Assembly: GCF_006352065.1 (NCBI RefSeq)
Contig: NZ_CP040915.1
Coordinates: 248,001-312,000 of the forward strand
Reading direction: 5' to 3'
DNA length: 64,000 bases
DNA from: Georgenia yuyongxinii
Lineage (GTDB): Bacteria; Actinomycetota; Actinomycetes; Actinomycetales; Actinomycetaceae
Position 1 is the stretch's first letter, and each line of letters begins with the position of its first letter. This document shows positions 980 to 18,070 of this stretch, in pieces. Under the pieces are notes generated by a model that was given only the letters and a program-made list of their open reading frames with translations, had not been told where the DNA came from and made no database searches. Position numbers and translations under genes: made by a program.

Positions 980-3900
980 ATGTCCAACGACGGGCAGGGC
1001 ACCCAGGGCAGGCTCGCGCTCGCGCCGGGGAGCCCGGCCGAGGCGACGGCGGACCGGCAGGCCGAGCTCGAGGACCGGCAGGCCGAGCCCCGGACGGAGC
1101 GCGGCCCCGCGCTCCACGTGCCCGCCCACCCGGTCCGCGTGGTCACCGCCGCCAGCCTCTTCGACGGCCACGACGCCGCCATCAACATCATCCGCCGCAT
1201 CCTGCAGGCCCAGGGCTGCGAGGTCATCCACCTCGGCCACGACCGCTCCGTGGCGGAGGTGGTCGCCGCCGCCGTGCAGGAGGACGCCCAGGCCGTCGCG
1301 ATCTCGTCCTACCAGGGCGGGCATGTGGAGTACTTCACCTACCTCGCCGACCAGCTGCGCGCGCACGGCTGCGGCCACGTGCGGGTCTTCGGCGGCGGCG
1401 GCGGGGTGATCGTCGCGGACGAGATCGCCGCGCTCGCGGACGTCGGCGTGCGGATCTTCTCCCCGGAGGACGGCCAGCGCCTCGGCCTGGCGGCGATGGT
1501 CAACGAGGTGGTGCGCGAGGCCGACGTCGACCCCGTCGCCGCCGCCGGCGGCCCGCCCGCCGACCTCGCCGCGCTCGGCGTCGGGGACGTGCGCGCCCTG
1601 GCCCGCACCCTCACCGCCCTCGAGCTCGGCCGCCTGCCCGAGCACCTGCTCGCCGAGCTGCGCCGGGCCGCGGAGGCGAGCGCCGCCGTCGTCCTGGGGA
1701 TCACCGGCACCGGCGGGTCGGGCAAGTCCTCCCTCACCGACGAGCTGCTGCTGCGGGCGCGGCTGGACCAGGGCGACGGGCTGCGCATGGCGGTGCTCGC
1801 CGTCGACCCCACCCGCCGGCGCGGCGGCGGGGCGCTCCTGGGCGACCGGATCCGGATGAACGCCCTCACCGAGGGCACGTTCTTCCGGTCCGTCGCCACC
1901 CGCGGCGCGGGCGGGGACCTGCCCGCCGCGCTGGACGAGATGGTCGCGGCCGCCAAGGTGTGGGGCGCCGACCTGGTGATCGTCGAGACGCCGGGGATCG
2001 GGCAGGGCGACGCGGGGATCGTCGACCACGTCGACGTGCCCGTGTACGTCATGACCCCGGAGTTCGGCGCGGCCACCCAGCTCGAGAAGATCGACATGCT
2101 CGACCTCGCCGAGGTCGTCGTCATCAACAAGTTCGACCGGCGCGGCGCCGAGGACGCCCTGCGCGACGTGCGCCGCCAGGTGGCCCGCAACCGCCTCGCC
2201 TTCGCCGCCGCCCCGGAGGCCCTGCCAGTGTTCGGCACGGTCGCCTCCCGCGTGCACGACGACGGCGTCACCGCCCTCTACCTGCACCTGCGCCACCTGC
2301 TCGCCGGGCACGGCCTGCCGGTGGGCAACGGCGCCCTGGCGCCCGTCGACCACATGGTCTCCACCCGGGTCGCGCCCCTGGTGCCGGTCGCCCGGGTCGG
2401 CTACCTCGCCGAGGCCGCCGAGGCGGTGCGCGCCTACCACCGCCGCACCGCCGAGCAGGCCGCCGCGGCCCGCGAGCTGCAGCACCTGACCGGCGCCCGC
2501 GAGATCCTGGCGGGCCGGCTCACCGGCGCCCCCGCCGGCTTGGACGACGCCGTCGCCGAGGCCGAGGCGCACCTGACCGAGGAGACGCGCGTCCTGCTCG
2601 CCGAGTGGCCCACCCTCGCCACCGCGGCGGGCGCCGTCGCGCCGGCCGTGTCGCTCTCCGGCACACCCGTGCCGCGGCTCGCCCTGCCGCGCCTGCACGA
2701 CGACGGCGACCTGCTCACCTGGCTGCGCGGCGAGCACCTGCCGGGCCACTTCCCATACACCGCCGGCGTTTTCACCCGCCGCCGCACCGACGAGCACCCG
2801 GCCCGCATGTTCGCCGGCGAGGGGGACCCGGCGCGCACCAACCGCCGCTTCCACCTGCTCGCCTCAGGCCAGCCCGCCGTCCGGCTGTCCACGGCGTTCG
2901 ACTCGGTGACGCTCTACGGCTCCGACCCCGACACCCGGCCCGACATCTACGGCAAGGTCGGCAACTCCGGGGTCTCCATCGCCACGCTCGCGGACATGAA
3001 GGCGCTCTACGCCGGGTTCGACCTGTGCGCGCCGAGCACGTCGGTGTCGATGACCATCAACGGCCCCGCGCCGACCATCCTGGCGATGTTCCTCAACACC
3101 GCGATCGACCAGCGCCTCGACGCCTTCGCCGCCGCGCACGGACGGCCGCCGTCGGTCACCGAGGCCGCGGACCTGCGCGCGGAGGCGCTGCGGACCGTGC
3201 GCGGCACCGTGCAGGCCGACATCCTCAAGGAGGACCAGGGGCAGAACACCTGCATCTTCTCCACCGACTTCTCCCTCAAGGTGATGGCGGACATCCAGGA
3301 GTGGTTCGTCGCCCACGAGGTGAAGCGGTTCTACTCGGTGTCCATCAGCGGCTACCACATCGCCGAGGCCGGGGCGAACCCCATCAGCCAGCTCGCCTTC
3401 ACCCTCGCCAACGGCCTGACGTACGTGGAGGCGTACCTGGCGCGGGGCATGGCGGTGGACGACTTCGCGCCCAGCCTGTCCTTCTTCTTCTCCAACGGGA
3501 TGGACCCGGAGTACTCCGTGCTGGGCCGGGTGGCGCGGCGGGTGTGGGCGATCGTGCTGCGCGACCGGTACGGCGCGACCGCCCGCAGCCAGCGGCTGAA
3601 GTACCACATCCAGACCTCGGGCCGGTCCCTGCACGCCCAGGAGATGGCGTTCAACGACATCCGCACCACCCTGCAGGCGCTCATCGCCCTGTACGACACC
3701 GCGAACTCGCTGCACACCAACGCCTACGACGAGGCCGTCACCACGCCCACCGAGGAGTCGGTGCGCCGCGCGCTGGCCATCCAGCTCATCATCAACTCCG
3801 AGTGGGGCCCGATGAGCAACGAGAACCCCAACCAGGGCTCGTTCCTCATCGCCGAGCTCACCGACCTCGTGGAGCGCGCGGTGCTCGACGAGCTCGACCG

Positions 3901-4321
3901 CCTCTCCGCCCGGGGCGGGGTGCTCGGCGCCATGGAGACCGGCTACCAGCGCGGCCGGATCCAGGACGAGTCGATGCTGTACGAGCAGCGCAAGCATGAC
4001 GGGTCGCTTCCGATCGTCGGCGTCAACACCTTCCGGGCGCCCGACGGCGACGACGGCGACGACGGCGGCGGCGCGGCGAAGGGGCCGCTGCGGCTGGCAC
4101 GGTCCACGGAGGCGGAGAAGCGTGGCCAGGTGGAGCGGCTGCGCGCGTTCCAGGCCGCGCACGCCGAGGAGCGGCCGGCCGCGCTGGCGCGGCTGCAGTC
4201 CGCGGCGCTCGCGGAGGAGAACGTCTTCGACGTCCTGATGGACGTGGTGCGGGTGGCCAGTCTGGGGGAGATCACCCAGGCGCTGTTCGAGGTGGGCGGG
4301 AAGTACCGGCGCAACGTGTGA
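980..4321 (+). CDS. icmF: Fused isobutyryl-CoA mutase IcmF
   Basis: Adenosylcobalamin-dependent mutase that interconverts isobutyryl-CoA and n-butyryl-CoA, with its G-protein chaperone built in. Order over 1113 residues: B12-binding domain (about 50-185, DGHDAAIN motif), MeaB-like GTPase (P-loop GITGTGGSGKSS near 240, then ETPGIGQGD and NKFD), a linker, and the large mutase domain (about 590-1085). Length and order match the IcmF family rather than split methylmalonyl-CoA mutase. The N-terminal 45 residues are charged and low in complexity. The ATG has no ribosome site and follows a TATGCT box by six bases, so it is likely leaderless. It links valine or fatty-acid CoA metabolism to butyrate. 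Some IcmF proteins also act on pivalyl- or isovaleryl-CoA, which cannot be judged from sequence alone. Confidence 0.95.
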   Translation: MSNDGQGTQGRLALAPGSPAEATADRQAELEDRQAEPRTERGPALHVPAHPVRVVTAASLFDGHDAAINIIRRILQAQGCEVIHLGHDRSVAEVVAAAVQEDAQAVAISSYQGGHVEYFTYLADQLRAHGCGHVRVFGGGGGVIVADEIAALADVGVRIFSPEDGQRLGLAAMVNEVVREADVDPVAAAGGPPADLAALGVGDVRALARTLTALELGRLPEHLLAELRRAAEASAAVVLGITGTGGSGKSSLTDELLLRARLDQGDGLRMAVLAVDPTRRRGGGALLGDRIRMNALTEGTFFRSVATRGAGGDLPAALDEMVAAAKVWGADLVIVETPGIGQGDAGIVDHVDVPVYVMTPEFGAATQLEKIDMLDLAEVVVINKFDRRGAEDALRDVRRQVARNRLAFAAAPEALPVFGTVASRVHDDGVTALYLHLRHLLAGHGLPVGNGALAPVDHMVSTRVAPLVPVARVGYLAEAAEAVRAYHRRTAEQAAAARELQHLTGAREILAGRLTGAPAGLDDAVAEAEAHLTEETRVLLAEWPTLATAAGAVAPAVSLSGTPVPRLALPRLHDDGDLLTWLRGEHLPGHFPYTAGVFTRRRTDEHPARMFAGEGDPARTNRRFHLLASGQPAVRLSTAFDSVTLYGSDPDTRPDIYGKVGNSGVSIATLADMKALYAGFDLCAPSTSVSMTINGPAPTILAMFLNTAIDQRLDAFAAAHGRPPSVTEAADLRAEALRTVRGTVQADILKEDQGQNTCIFSTDFSLKVMADIQEWFVAHEVKRFYSVSISGYHIAEAGANPISQLAFTLANGLTYVEAYLARGMAVDDFAPSLSFFFSNGMDPEYSVLGRVARRVWAIVLRDRYGATARSQRLKYHIQTSGRSLHAQEMAFNDIRTTLQALIALYDTANSLHTNAYDEAVTTPTEESVRRALAIQLIINSEWGPMSNENPNQGSFLIAELTDLVERAVLDELDRLSARGGVLGAMETGYQRGRIQDESMLYEQRKHDGSLPIVGVNTFRAPDGDDGDDGGGAAKGPLRLARSTEAEKRGQVERLRAFQAAHAEERPAALARLQSAALAEENVFDVLMDVVRVASLGEITQALFEVGGKYRRNV

Positions 4322-12778: not shown

Positions 12779-13113
12779 CGATTCCCCCCTGGAATCTCGT
12801 TGTCCGGCGCGCGACGTCGCGCACCTGTCGGCTGGACGAACCCCCGAGGTCGCCGGTGGCATCTTGAGAAGGTCGTCCCGCCATATCGATCATGCGGTGG
12901 ACATCTGAGACTCTGGCATGGTTGCCACTTGTTGCCGTCCGGAAGGGAGAGGGCGGCTTCGATGTGCTCAAGGGAGGTGGCGCCCGAGTAATGCGCCGGT
13001 AACGCCGGAGCGAGGATCCTTCTCCGGGCAAGTACGTGCCCATGGCGAGCCACAGGTGCCCCGGGGTCGACCGTGCACTGGGCCGGCAGCCGCTGGCGAG
13101 AGGAACGGAGCAC
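12779..13113. other. 335-base intergenic region
   Basis: Upstream of both the leftward hydrolase and the rightward CAP-lectin gene, so it must hold two promoters. It is less GC-rich near 12880-12940. I see no convincing -10/-35 pair, operator or riboswitch. Confidence 0.4.
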
Positions 13114-13983
13114 ATGACCGTTACCTTCGGCGACCTGCTGTTCGGCGTACCGCTGACCGGGACGGCGATCCAGCTCCACATCAACCAGCACCGGGCGGCG
13201 CTGGGCCTGCTGCCGGTCTTCGTGGACCCAGCGCTCTCGACGGCCGCCGCGCGGCACACGGCCGACATGTCGACGAACCCATGGGTCTACAAGACCGCCG
13301 GCCGTGACGCGCACCAGGGCTCCGACCTGAGTACACCGACGGTCCGCATCGAGGCCGCCGCGGCGGCCAATGGCTGGCGCCCCGACCGGACGGGCGAGAT
13401 CCTCTACTGGGGCGGCCCGCTCCTCAACGGCGACGCGCCCTTCAACTGGTGGATGGGCAGCCCCGGGCACCGGCAACGCATCGAGGACGGCGCCTACACG
13501 CACCTCGGCTTCTCTGCCAGCCACACCAACAGCGCCAACGAGTGGGTGTACGGCGTCACGTTCGCCCGCGCCCCGGCCCGCGCGATCTTCGCCCAGCACA
13601 GCGGACGGGTCATCGACGTCAAGGACATCTCGACGGCGAACGGTGCCGCCATCATCCAGTGGGACTGGTGGGGCGGCGGGAACCAGCGCTGGGTGCTGGA
13701 GCCTGTGGGCGGCGGCTACGTGCGCATCGTGGCCGTCCACAGCGGCAAGGTGCTCGACGTCGCCGGCATCTCCATGGACAACGGCGCGCCCCTCACCCAG
13801 TGGGACTGGTGGGGCGGCGACAACCAGCGCTTCCGCCCCGAGGTCTACGGCATCGGCCAGCTCAAGCTGACGGCCAAGCACAGCGGCAAGGTGGTCGAAG
13901 TCGCCGGGATGGACGAGAACAACGGCGCACGCGTCCAGCAGTGGGACTGGTGGGGCGGCGCCAACCAGCTGTGGAAGTACTGA
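13114..13983 (+). CDS. CAP-domain protein with C-terminal ricin-type beta-trefoil lectin
   Basis: Residues about 1-150 form a CAP/SCP-like domain (HINQHRAALGL, RHTADMS, WWMGSPGHR). The rest is a ricin-B-like beta-trefoil with three repeats carrying QWDWWGGxNQ. Such proteins usually bind cell walls or glycans outside the cell. Oddly, no signal peptide is visible at the ATG (GGAG and AGGA sites just upstream) or at the in-frame ATG 78 bases earlier. It may leave by another route, or the true start may be misjudged. The next gene (TipAS-like) starts 25 bases later and may be cotranscribed. Confidence 0.8.
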   Translation: MTVTFGDLLFGVPLTGTAIQLHINQHRAALGLLPVFVDPALSTAAARHTADMSTNPWVYKTAGRDAHQGSDLSTPTVRIEAAAAANGWRPDRTGEILYWGGPLLNGDAPFNWWMGSPGHRQRIEDGAYTHLGFSASHTNSANEWVYGVTFARAPARAIFAQHSGRVIDVKDISTANGAAIIQWDWWGGGNQRWVLEPVGGGYVRIVAVHSGKVLDVAGISMDNGAPLTQWDWWGGDNQRFRPEVYGIGQLKLTAKHSGKVVEVAGMDENNGARVQQWDWWGGANQLWKY

Positions 13984-14008: not shown

Positions 14009-14392
14009 ATGGCACGCGAGGTGCGACGTCCGGAAGGGCTCCTGGACCGGCTGGCCACGGCGTACCGCGGCGAACGTCCGCAGGAGTGGCCCGAGGAGCT
14101 CCGCCGCGAGGAGAGCGACGTGGCCGACCGGATGGTCCGCCTCGCCGAGCTGATGGTCGCGGGCACACCCCCGACCGACCCGGCGGCCATGGACGCGGTC
14201 GACTGGTACTACCGCGCGGCCAACCAGTACGGCGGCGTCGACACCGCCGTGTTCACCGCGCTCGGCGAGGCGCTCGCGGCCGAGGACGACAAGCGTGCCC
14301 TCTTCGACGACGTCGTCCCGGGGCTGGCCGGCTATCAGCGCGAGGCGATGACCGCGTACGCGCGGACCCGCCTCGCCGCCGGCGGCGCCTGA
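14009..14392 (+). CDS. Stand-alone TipAS antibiotic-recognition domain protein
   Basis: A 127-residue all-helical protein resembling the drug-binding half of Streptomyces TipA (TipAS). It retains the pattern of a helix ending in LMVAGTPPTDPAAMDAV, then FTALGEALAAEDD and PGLAGYQREAMTAYA. The MerR-type DNA-binding half of TipAL is missing, so it cannot act alone as a regulator. Free TipAS binds and sequesters thiopeptide antibiotics, which suggests a drug-trapping role (inference). It follows the CAP-lectin gene closely. Identity with the family is judged from motif order, not a search. Confidence 0.75.
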   Translation: MAREVRRPEGLLDRLATAYRGERPQEWPEELRREESDVADRMVRLAELMVAGTPPTDPAAMDAVDWYYRAANQYGGVDTAVFTALGEALAAEDDKRALFDDVVPGLAGYQREAMTAYARTRLAAGGA

Positions 14393-14753: not shown

Positions 14754-16625
14754 TCAGTCGCGGAGCTTCGCCAGCCGGGCACGGAGCGCGTCCCGCCGTC
14801 GGGCGTTCCCGTGCAGCTGCACGTACCGGTCGCCGAAGACCCCCAGCAGCGCGTCGTCCAGCCGGCGGACCGCGCCGGGCGCGTACCGGTAGCCCATCCG
14901 CTCGCTGATCACGGCGCTGTCGACCGGCCTCAGCAGCTCACCGAGCTCGAGCAGCGACGTCACACCGAGCTCGAGCAGCAGACCGGAGACCCACGCGTAG
15001 TGGTCCGTGCGGGACCAGCCGGCGTCCGTGAACCGCCCGGCGAGGAACGCGGCCAGGTCCTGGGCGCTGATCCGCGGGTCGGTCTCGTCCGACTGTGGCT
15101 CCTGATCGGGCATGCTCTCCTGCAGCCGGTCCCGGATGGTGGAGAACTCCCGGTCGGCGAGGTCGAGCAGCCCCGCCGCCAACGTGAAGCGCCGGTCCAG
15201 GTCCGGGGCGACCTTCTCGGGGATGCTGCCCTTGTAGCGGATGTCGTGCTCGAACTCCGCCCACGCGTGCTGCAGCACGGTGCGCACCTGGACGGAGGCG
15301 GTCCGGTCTCGCAGGCGCGCGAGCTCCGGCTCGCCCGACCGGCCGGCGTCGAGAGCCACGAGCACGTGCCGGCTGGCGTACCCGAACCGGCCCTCCTGCG
15401 CCGTCTCGAGGCCCATGTCCCGGTCGCCGAGCATCACCAGCTGGTCGGCGAGCAGCTCCACCACGGCCTGGACGTCGCTCAGCACGTACGTCACGATCCG
15501 CAGCCCGATCTGGTCGGTGATCTCGCGCAACGGGTCGGAGAAGGCGGGCCTGCCGTCGACGGTCCGCGCCGCCTTCCCGGCGAACGAGGCGACGCTCTTC
15601 GTGCGGCCGGTGACCGCGTGGTAGTTGATGCCCGCGTCGTCGAGCAGGCCCGTGATCAGGGTGACGTACTGCGCCGTCGTGCGTTCGAGCTCGGGCCGCT
15701 GCGCCGCGTAGGCCTGCACCGCGCGCTGGACCGGGTCGGTGGCCGGCTGGGCCACGGTGGGCGAGCTCGGGGTGGCGGGCCCGGCGTCCGTCTCGGACGC
15801 GGCAGCCGGCCCGGCCGCCTCGGACGCGGCAGCCGGCTCGGCCTCACCCGCGGCAGCCGGCCCGACGGCGGAGGCCCGGGGAGTGGGGACCCGACCCTCC
15901 GGCAGGGTCGGGGTGATGATGTACCCCGTCGCCAGGTCGCCGTAGGTCGTCATGCGCTCGGGATGAGCCACCGCGAACCGGGCGACGTAGGCGCACAGCA
16001 CCGCGTCGACCTGGTCCTCCGCCACGCGCAGCTGGCTCTTGCGGGTGGCGGTGCGCACCGCCGTCGCCAGCTCGCGCCAGCCCGCGTGCTCCGTGACCAC
16101 CATCGCGGGCTCGGCACCTGCCAAGGCCTCGACGTGGTCCACCAGGGTCTGCAGGGCCTCCCGGAGCTGGGTGAGGTCCCGGCCGCCGCGCTGCTTGTAC
16201 TTCAAGGTCCGGCCCAGGCCGAAGAGCACCACGGTAGCCGGGTGCGGGTAGACCTCGATGCCGCGCCGTTCACGACCCGAGGCCGGGTTGATGTCGAGCC
16301 CGAGGGCCTTGGCGAGCCGGGCGCCGCGGGGGGTGCCGGCGAACTCGGGCTTGCCGGTGTTGGCGGGGTGCGCGCCGGCGTCGAACGCGGCGAAGTCGCG
16401 GTTGAGCGCTGCCTCGCACGGCCGGTTGCCCGTGGCGTTGGTGACCACCAGCGGGGCGTCGATCCCCGCCAGGACCGGCCCGTCGCGATACGGGGCCAGC
16501 GCGGTGAGGATGGACTCGTCCGTGGTCTCCGCGGAGAGGTGGACCAGCTGCCCGCCGGCGTCCAGGACGGCCACGCCGGTGGGGCTGCGCTCACCCCACG
16601 CGAGGTCGATGCCGACATAGTGCAT
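14754..16625 (-). CDS. DUF429 (RNase H-like) fused to RelA/SpoT synthetase domain
   Basis: A 623-residue fusion. Residues about 3-240 are a DUF429 domain, a predicted RNase H-fold module with acidic positions in GIDLAWG, AGIDAPLV and EDQVDAV. An Ala/Pro/Glu-rich linker runs from about 245 to 300. Residues about 310-470 are a RelA/SpoT nucleotide-synthetase domain: DQIGLRIVTYVLSD, the G-loop-like RFGYASRHV, and VQVRTVLQHAWAEFEHDI. No HD hydrolase domain is present, so if active it would make (p)ppGpp or pyrophosphorylate another target such as tRNA, as toxic small alarmone synthetases do. A C-terminal tail of about 150 residues is helical and unassigned. I prefer the ATG at 16625; a GTG 30 bases earlier is possible. 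Confidence 0.82.
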   Translation of the reverse strand: MHYVGIDLAWGERSPTGVAVLDAGGQLVHLSAETTDESILTALAPYRDGPVLAGIDAPLVVTNATGNRPCEAALNRDFAAFDAGAHPANTGKPEFAGTPRGARLAKALGLDINPASGRERRGIEVYPHPATVVLFGLGRTLKYKQRGGRDLTQLREALQTLVDHVEALAGAEPAMVVTEHAGWRELATAVRTATRKSQLRVAEDQVDAVLCAYVARFAVAHPERMTTYGDLATGYIITPTLPEGRVPTPRASAVGPAAAGEAEPAAASEAAGPAAASETDAGPATPSSPTVAQPATDPVQRAVQAYAAQRPELERTTAQYVTLITGLLDDAGINYHAVTGRTKSVASFAGKAARTVDGRPAFSDPLREITDQIGLRIVTYVLSDVQAVVELLADQLVMLGDRDMGLETAQEGRFGYASRHVLVALDAGRSGEPELARLRDRTASVQVRTVLQHAWAEFEHDIRYKGSIPEKVAPDLDRRFTLAAGLLDLADREFSTIRDRLQESMPDQEPQSDETDPRISAQDLAAFLAGRFTDAGWSRTDHYAWVSGLLLELGVTSLLELGELLRPVDSAVISERMGYRYAPGAVRRLDDALLGVFGDRYVQLHGNARRRDALRARLAKLRD

Positions 16626-16680
16626 GGGAACACTCTGCCGTGCCGCGCCGGTCACCGGTGCACGGCAGGGCGGTGCTGAA

Positions 16681-16735
16681 CCTGCCTGTTGCGCCGAGAC
16701 CTGCCTCTTGCGCCGAGACCTGCAGGCGGAACGGC
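16681..16735. repeat. Two-and-a-half 19-base direct repeats upstream of the DUF429-RelA gene
   Basis: Unit 16681-16699 is repeated at 16700-16718 with one mismatch (G/C), and a third partial unit starts at 16719. CCTGCC and GGCAGG ends could also pair into a hairpin. It lies 56 to 110 bases upstream of the leftward gene's start, where a promoter or operator is expected. Confidence 0.6.
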
Positions 16736-16808
16736 AGGTATCGGTCGGAAAGTGCAGGTGTCACCGCGCCGCGCCGAAAAAGCCTCGCACCGGCGTTGGC
16801 AGGGCGGG

Positions 16809-16966: not shown

Positions 16967-18070
16967 TTGCTTGCTGACCTCAGCCTCACCGATCTGGGCT
17001 GGGACGACCGGTTCGCCGAGTCCCTGCCCGCCGACACCCTCCCGGCCCGCGTGGTGCGGGTCGACCGCGGCGCCGCCCTCGTCCACACCGCCGACGGCGT
17101 CACGCACGTCCGCCTGAGCGCCCAGCTGCGCCGGACCGGCGCCCAGGATCCCGTCGCCCTGCCCTGCGCCGGCGACTGGGTCGCCCTCCACCCGCTGCCC
17201 GGCGGCGGCCACGTGGCCGACGTGGTGCTGCCCCGGCGCACCGCCGTCGTCCGCGGCGGCGTCGCCCGCCTCTCCCGCGGCGGCCTGTCCGGTGACGGTC
17301 AGGGCCAGGTCCTCGCCGCCAACGTCGACGTGGTCCTCGTCGCCGAGCCGGCCCGCCATGCGGTCGACCCCGCCGACCTCGGCCGGATCGAGCGGCTCGT
17401 CGCCCTGGCCTGGGAGAGCGGCGCCGTGCCCGTCGTCGTGGTCACCAAGGCGGACCTGCTGCCCACCGGGCTGGGCGACCTGCTCGACGACGTCGCCGCG
17501 GCGACCCCCGGCGCCGAGGTGCACGCCGTCGCCGCCCTCGACGGGCAGGGTCTCGACGCCGTCCGCCCGCACCTCGGCCCGGGCCGCACCGCGGTGGTCC
17601 TGGGCCCCTCCGGGGCGGGAAAGTCCACCCTCGTCAACGCACTCGCCGGGACGCCGGTCATGGCCACACAGCAGGTCCGTGCCGCCGACGGGCGCGGCCG
17701 GCACACCACCGTCCATCGCGAGCTGGTGGTGCTGCCGAGCGGCGGGCTGGTCATCGACACCCCCGGGCTTCGGCGCGTGAGCCTGTACGAGATGAGCGAA
17801 GGCGTGGACCGGGTCTTCGCCGACGTCGAGGACCTCGCCCAGCGGTGCCGGTTCACCGACTGCGGGCACCGCACCGAACCGGGCTGCGCGGTGGTCGCCG
17901 CGGTGGACTCCGGTGCGCTGCCCCGGCGGCGCCTGGAGAGCTGGCGGCTGCTGCAGCGGGAGGCGGCGTGGATGGCCACTCGCACCGACGCCCGGCTGCG
18001 CACCGAGCAGACGAAGGCGTGGCGCAGCGAGACCCTGCATCGACGGCGGACCGGTCAGAGCCGGCCTTAG
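16967..18070 (+). CDS. rsgA: Ribosome small-subunit maturation GTPase RsgA
   Basis: A 367-residue circularly permuted GTPase that checks and matures the 30S subunit. Order: N-terminal OB-fold (about 25-115), then G-motifs in permuted order VTKADLL (G4), GPSGAGKSTLVN (G1) and DTPGLRR (G3), then the zinc knuckle CRFTDCGHRTEPGC. The start is TTG with AAGGA nine bases upstream. An out-of-frame ATG overlapping that ribosome site opens only six codons. The stop overlaps the convergent, frameshifted doxX by four bases. Confidence 0.93.
   Translation: MLADLSLTDLGWDDRFAESLPADTLPARVVRVDRGAALVHTADGVTHVRLSAQLRRTGAQDPVALPCAGDWVALHPLPGGGHVADVVLPRRTAVVRGGVARLSRGGLSGDGQGQVLAANVDVVLVAEPARHAVDPADLGRIERLVALAWESGAVPVVVVTKADLLPTGLGDLLDDVAAATPGAEVHAVAALDGQGLDAVRPHLGPGRTAVVLGPSGAGKSTLVNALAGTPVMATQQVRAADGRGRHTTVHRELVVLPSGGLVIDTPGLRRVSLYEMSEGVDRVFADVEDLAQRCRFTDCGHRTEPGCAVVAAVDSGALPRRRLESWRLLQREAAWMATRTDARLRTEQTKAWRSETLHRRRTGQSRP

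Follow-up and report, generated by a model that had tools for sequence, protein, structure and literature searches.

The question raised by this locus is whether a protein that carries a nuclease-like domain and an alarmone synthetase domain in one polypeptide is something new or belongs to a known enzyme family, and what such a protein may do. The gene lies in a window of 64,000 nucleotides (the whole stretch of DNA analysed here) from Georgenia yuyongxinii. A preliminary description of it had proposed a DUF429 domain fused to a RelA/SpoT domain and a coupling of nucleic-acid sensing or cutting to alarmone production or tRNA pyrophosphorylation, possibly in stress or phage defence.

Domain layout and relationship to RelZ

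An open reading frame with an ATG start fills the proposed interval exactly (Table 1), and the fusion was borne out by the Pfam domain search. The DUF429 family matched residues 5–225 (E 2.6e-25; score 89.9 bits, cutoff 23) and RelA_SpoT matched residues 340–466 (E 2.2e-14; score 54.1 bits, cutoff 27). The description of a nuclease-fold domain joined to a hydrolase-less synthetase was also right: a Pfam scan at E 0.1 listed no HD, TGS or ACT family for the 79 members of our alignment, and no family besides DUF429 and RelA_SpoT in more than 4 of the 79. A third conserved part, absent from that description, was found at about residues 506–623 and showed a median identity of 67% in the 79-row alignment. 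The linker (about residues 246–300) had a median identity of 35%, in contrast to 64–67% in the three conserved parts. A search of PDB sequences returned RelQ and RelP chains as relatives of the synthetase domain (best E 2.8e-12) and gave no credible relative for DUF429 or for the C-terminal segment. The NCBIfam model for RelQ, GTPPhKinYjbM, matched weakly, its 50.4 bits lying below the equivalog cutoff of 320, and the protein is therefore not a RelQ by this model.

Table 1. Positions of the gene, its parts and its surroundings in the window.
Feature	Position	Strand or orientation	Basis or remark
Whole gene, RelZ-type DUF429–RelA_SpoT protein	14754..16625	-	623 aa + stop; Pfam
DUF429 (RNase H-like) domain, aa 1-245	15891..16625	-	Pfam aa 5-225; residue conservation
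Variable linker, aa 246-300	15726..15890	-	Median identity 35%
Alarmone synthetase (SYNTH) domain, aa 301-505	15111..15725	-	Pfam RelA_SpoT; RelQ/RelP PDB sequences
S444 codon, position of the ExQIRT glutamate of RelP/RelQ/Rel	15294..15296	-	Alignment and sequence letters
Conserved C-terminal segment, aa 506-623	14757..15110	-	Common to unfused homologs too
Conserved upstream stretch, consensus about TA[GC]GGCAGnnT	16632..16644	-	79 upstream regions compared
RsgA GTPase gene	16967-18070	Divergent from the DUF429–synthetase gene	Pfam
TipAS-domain gene	14009-14392	Convergent with the DUF429–synthetase gene	Pfam
CAP domain, then ricin-type beta-trefoil lectin repeats	13036-13983	+	Side observation

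DUF429 has been assigned to the RuvC-containing clade of the RNase H-like superfamily. Seven residues of the domain (D7, D56, E124, H128, E203, D204 and D207) were invariant in all 79 members, and the same seven were kept in all four stand-alone DUF429 proteins compared (L184–L187), which resemble the N-terminal domain of the window protein in these acidic residues but have no synthetase domain. The RNase HII model (PF01351) was not listed as a match in any of the 79 members; since the domain is DUF429 and not of that family, the name 'RNase HII' used for such proteins refers to the reported activity alone. A canonical RNase HII is encoded at another place in the genome (G000:C1:1340043).

Relatives were taken from a one-genome-per-species collection with 440 encoding stretches, of which the best 80 were kept after ranking by match to the full-length query; because of this ranking the 80 tell nothing about the frequency of the fusion. 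Every organism title among the best 80 names actinobacteria. All 80 matches have both domains together in frame, and the fusion is therefore genuine and no artefact of assembly. The alignment and trees omit two of them (L044 and L092), though both are fused, and the remaining 78 full-length homologs have 58–79% identity to the window protein; both Pfam domains were matched in all 79 aligned sequences. Georgenia proteins were nearest to the window protein on the tree, and the named Mycolicibacterium homologs, M. hodleri (L082) and M. moriokaense (L090), aligned over residues 1–622. On a tree of the SYNTH domain and C-terminal segment, the window protein and the Mycobacteriaceae rows stood together among 148 rows, apart from two outgroups. 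Besides the window protein, the genome encodes one other RelA_SpoT protein, a long Rel-type frame; no DUF429 was found in it other than that of the window protein.

The presence of the gene was followed in samples of increasing breadth. In its own genus seven of nine genomes (the window's included) had a match, in every case with both domains in one frame. In the class sample, the synthetase and C-terminal part was matched at more than 300 bits in 19 of 197 genomes, with an in-frame DUF429 in 12 and without one in 7. Matches of this strength were confined, among the 198 genomes of the phylum sample, to the window's own genome and one genome of its order, and the clade therefore seems restricted to part of the class.

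The preliminary description had called the architecture unlike Rel, RelP/RelQ or the known toxic small alarmone synthetases, and in this it was mistaken: the protein has the actRel-with-DUF429, or RelZ, architecture, which has been in print since 2011–2012. DUF429 was noted in some actRel proteins, including those of M. gilvum and M. smegmatis (Atkinson 2011). The Mycobacterium smegmatis protein MSMEG_5849, described as MS_RHII-RSD and later as RelZ, is reported to cut RNA:DNA hybrids and R-loops (PMC7591505). According to the same source, RelZ is a hexamer with a preference for GMP and produces both pGpp and (p)ppGpp; ssRNA and pppGpp inhibit it, UV stress upregulates it, and neither domain is active alone. 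Its dual activity is also mentioned in PMC4429107, PMC4300193, PMC5566576, PMC8622095 and PMC10112252. RelZ is thus a reported case of one protein that both removes R-loops and makes an alarmone.

We consider it likely that the window protein is an ortholog of mycobacterial RelZ, that is, a chromosomal stress enzyme from the actRel group of small alarmone synthetases that carries DUF429 at its N terminus. An N-terminal DUF429 and a C-terminal RelA_SpoT stand in one polypeptide with no hydrolase domain, a Pfam architecture identical to the published one; the homology to the mycobacterial members L082 and L090 runs over the full length, and the gene is chromosomal and widespread, both in its own genus and, as regards the core of synthetase and C-terminal segment, in the genus g83 considered below. 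The likeness to RelZ is drawn from the published description of MSMEG_5849 and from the named Mycolicibacterium homologs, and the window protein belongs to another genus. Against orthology stand the family sample of 151 genomes, where the seven genomes of the window's genus matched over both domains but 26 of the 33 matching genomes only partially, and the two of nine genomes of the genus that had no match to the gene. By its description RelS of Corynebacterium glutamicum (cg2324) is also a small alarmone synthetase of the actRel group, but it has no DUF429; its Syn4 motif deviates slightly (PMC5566576), its synthetase domain is called extended in a review (PMC7591505), and its authors questioned the placing of RelS and RelZ in one subgroup (PMC5566576). 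RelQ/YjbM and RelP/YwaC resemble the window protein in the sequence of the SYNTH domain, where all substrate-contact residues but one are the same; they differ in that they have no DUF429, their chains of 209–255 residues stop at the end of SYNTH, and the ExQIRT glutamate is present.

If the window protein shares the activities of the M. smegmatis enzyme, its role would lie in managing stress and not in toxicity or defence. DUF429 would bind and cut the RNA in RNA:DNA hybrids (R-loops) by means of a RuvC/RNase H-like acidic site, and SYNTH would transfer pyrophosphate from a nucleoside triphosphate donor to GMP, GDP or GTP, giving pGpp and (p)ppGpp. With hybrid cutting and alarmone synthesis combined, R-loop stress would therefore be both repaired and signalled by one oligomeric protein. 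The proposed coupling of nucleic-acid cutting to alarmone production thus holds for the M. smegmatis member, for which it is reported, and may extend to the window protein by analogy.

The synthetase active site and the optional DUF429 domain

In RelP the substrates are contacted by R78, K80, S84, K88, R91, R112, Y151 and H190, and Mg2+ is held by Asp107 and Glu174 (PMC5794853). We placed these positions on our alignment by motif and spacing, an assignment of our own. The window protein has all nine of the S. aureus RelP residues R78, K80, S84, K88, R91, D107, R112, Y151 and H190. Eight of them were invariant in 115 fused rows, the R91 position being R in 111, K in 3 and S in 1, and all nine were invariant in 33 close unfused rows. 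The exception was Glu174, the E of the ExQIRT motif. The window protein has S444 at this position and so differs from the RelP/RelQ type; the 115 fused rows had Q in 74, S in 32, A in 7, T in 1 and E in 1, and the 33 unfused rows S in 30 and Q in 3. Since neither the Q nor the R of the motif varies, the alignment column is secure. The single fused row that keeps the glutamate, L110, is a divergent homolog.

The glutamate was retained in the outgroups L113 and L114, in the long Rel of the genome (L001), in another small synthetase of the genus (L013), in L115–L118 and L120–L123 (L119 had no match to the motif) and in the RelP/RelQ-like neighbours of L125, L127, L132 and L196. A statement of its loss across the clade was not found in the reviews and citing papers searched, and may be in print. 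Since S444 stands in place of a Mg2+ ligand of RelP, the activity of the window protein is not assured. Because a residue thought to be catalytic is gone from nearly the whole clade while the other contacts persist, the chemistry of these enzymes lends itself to direct testing.

DUF429 is optional in the RelZ clade, a point that was likewise not found stated in the reviews and citing papers searched. In the seven unfused loci of the class sample (L095, L100, L102, L105, L106, L107 and L112) no DUF429 was found in any frame within about 1.5 kb. In the genus g83, which is probably Nocardioides, 92 of 98 genomes matched the synthetase and C-terminal part, 89 of them strongly (at least 352 bits). 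Among these 89 genomes, 59 had a DUF429 match directly upstream on the same contig, 4–102 bases away, and 30 had none anywhere at E 1e-3, a few of the genomes being less than 90% complete. The published statement that neither domain works alone sits badly with these 30 genomes, which keep the core without a DUF429 match. Unfused kin within one genus provide natural fused and unfused pairs for asking if the nuclease part controls the synthetase.

The 150-row tree contained 115 fused and 35 unfused rows, the latter including L139 and the outgroups L113 and L114; this ratio is no frequency, because the named 80 are the best full-length matches and the unfused loci were fetched on purpose. The fused or unfused label switched eight times on this tree, four of the switches being forced by starred branches, and the same numbers, eight and four, were obtained with a more carefully built tree of 72 selected rows without L139. 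At least four changes of state are thus forced on both trees. Gain and loss of DUF429 are indistinguishable, because the root is uncertain and the branch to the outgroups very long.

Several observations were made on individual loci. In G369 (L139/L183), one of the 59 genomes, DUF429 and the synthetase lie in two different, overlapping frames (2937-3902 and 2062-3840 of L183, both on the minus strand), which may reflect a natural split, a frameshift or a sequencing error. The stand-alone DUF429 proteins L184 (4155-4943, plus strand) and L185 (3648-4418, plus strand) have 51–55% identity to the domain of the window protein, and their genomes gave no match to the synthetase part. In some g83 genomes the RelZ-type gene has a tail-to-tail neighbour, a second synthetase gene that is RelP/RelQ-like and has the ExQIRT glutamate (L125, 2475-3485, minus; L127, 2494-3222, minus; L132, 2-880, plus; L196, 1901-2692, plus).

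The preliminary description had named two findings that would count against it, the loss of essential synthetase residues and the existence of a large characterised family with a mundane role. Each was found in part: one normally catalytic residue, the ExQIRT glutamate, is lost in the clade and the others are kept, and a characterised member, RelZ, exists. The features that still deserve attention are the altered catalytic site and the removable nuclease module.

Alternative readings and mobile relatives

Both features bear on an alternative that is compatible with membership of the RelZ family, in which the enzyme is a glutamate-less synthetase with altered use of metal or donor and DUF429 is a removable regulator or nucleic-acid sensor, not a required nuclease. 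That 114 of 115 fused rows and all 33 close unfused rows carry Q, S, A or T instead of the glutamate points this way, as do its retention in the outgroups and the long Rel, its role as a Mg2+ ligand in RelP, and the 30 of 89 g83 genomes in which DUF429 was not found. Mg2+-independent activity is mentioned for the M. smegmatis enzyme (PMC5566576). E145 of FaRel2, which stands in an E-x-Q arrangement of equal spacing with Q147, reportedly recognises the amino group of adenosine and gives adenosine specificity (PMC11782079), and by our comparison of the motifs it would occupy the position of the ExQIRT glutamate. Q or S could, however, contact adenine or the metal through water, and L110 is fused and keeps the E. 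We regard this reading as tenable, but less probable than its negation. Somewhat less probable again, and on balance unlikely, is a stronger form of it, which rests on the loss of the glutamate from all but one of 148 rows: fused and unfused members of the RelZ clade alike would be mechanistically distinct pyrophosphotransferases working with one acidic ligand, with no Mg2+ or with a donor other than ATP, and DUF429 would be an optional module for sensing hybrids, gained or lost on several occasions.

Two further readings, as an anti-phage effector and as a toxin, are possible, with little behind them. In the first, which we think very improbable, DUF429 would sense or cut phage nucleic acid and the synthetase would halt growth. 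Candidate PADLOC models matched all 79 members at E 0.1, PDC-S44 on the DUF429 part (268 bits in the window protein) and PDC-S33 on the synthetase part (23 bits), but they are candidates, PDC-S44 being named in the literature in a list of predictions, and the protection itself is putative. Four PHROG families with no function assigned matched the synthetase part (best phrog_9640, residues 306–505, E 6.2e-33), and 24 phage records contained relatives of the synthetase domain, covering 22–31% of the protein at 25–34% identity. None of 50,697 phage and 72,556 plasmid records, however, had 80% of the protein in one place, and the core is near-universal in g83 rather than patchy. Of 13 neighbouring frames only two matched PADLOC models, RsgA (best mad8, 26 bits) and an ABC transporter ATPase (best mad3, 136 bits), and we read these as P-loop cross-matches because ordinary Pfam families match about equally well or better. 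The suggestion of phage defence therefore keeps its candidate models and its phage relatives of one domain, and lacks a full-length phage or plasmid copy and a patchy distribution. The toxin reading, to which we give equally little credence, holds that the protein is ToxSAS-like, acting by tRNA pyrophosphorylation or ppApp, with DUF429 restraining it in cis. The SYNTH domain is of the same superfamily, and the family profile weakly matched (E 0.07) the PDB chains 7ztb and 9erv, both named RelA/SpoT family protein, which we take to be CapRel. Between the divergent RsgA gene and the convergent TipAS gene, on the other hand, no adjacent antitoxin-like gene was found, by small-frame checks that a short unconserved antitoxin might escape. 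The retention of the core without DUF429 in 30 of 89 g83 genomes disallows a cis-antitoxin role unless another antitoxin exists. Identification as a RelZ-type stress enzyme is accordingly the reading we prefer.

A mobile or viral origin of the fused gene was considered and found no support in the phage, plasmid and viral-contig searches, although the synthetase domain alone has such relatives. Besides the 24 phage records, partial matches occurred in 45 plasmid records, a figure that includes matches to DUF429 only, and of eight viral-contig stretches that fit tight patterns none encodes a relative.

Neighbouring genes and the upstream region

The further neighbours are metabolic, transport or regulatory genes (M20 peptidase, ABC transporter, DoxX, CofD, CofC, nitroreductase, glyoxalase, TetR and S49 peptidase). 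Four further small frames beside the gene had no Pfam match above cutoff, and the small frames in the two flanking gaps were unconserved in five loci of the same genus except for shadows of the gene and short matches elsewhere. Of 12 window neighbours looked for in the 80 loci, a signal peptide peptidase-like gene occurred only beside L014 and CofD only in L040; ABC ATPase-like matches occurred in 13 of the 80, with 30–50% identity among the 12 rows listed. Clustering of the frames of the 80 loci gave nothing common to more than 14 of them apart from the gene and its shadow frames, with clusters of 10–14 loci present.

An alternative GTG 30 bases upstream opens the same frame as the ATG. We prefer the ATG because a conserved block sits at a fixed distance before it in the homologs. 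About 7 bases separate the end of this stretch from the start codon, with no ribosome-binding site apparent in the interval, and the stretch may represent the -10 element of a promoter that gives a leaderless transcript. Loose scans of 78 upstream regions for DNA-damage boxes, with up to 3 mismatches to consensus sequences and with mononucleotide shuffles for comparison, gave 46 matches to an SOS-type motif against 13.1 in shuffles, the palindrome being counted on both strands, and 36 to a PafBC-type motif against 14.3, some of these overlying the motif near the start; the matches listed had 2–3 mismatches, and we draw no conclusion from these scans. A short direct repeat, two copies of TTGCGCCGAGACCTGC, was read by eye in the upstream intergenic region, at 16670-16750 of the window.
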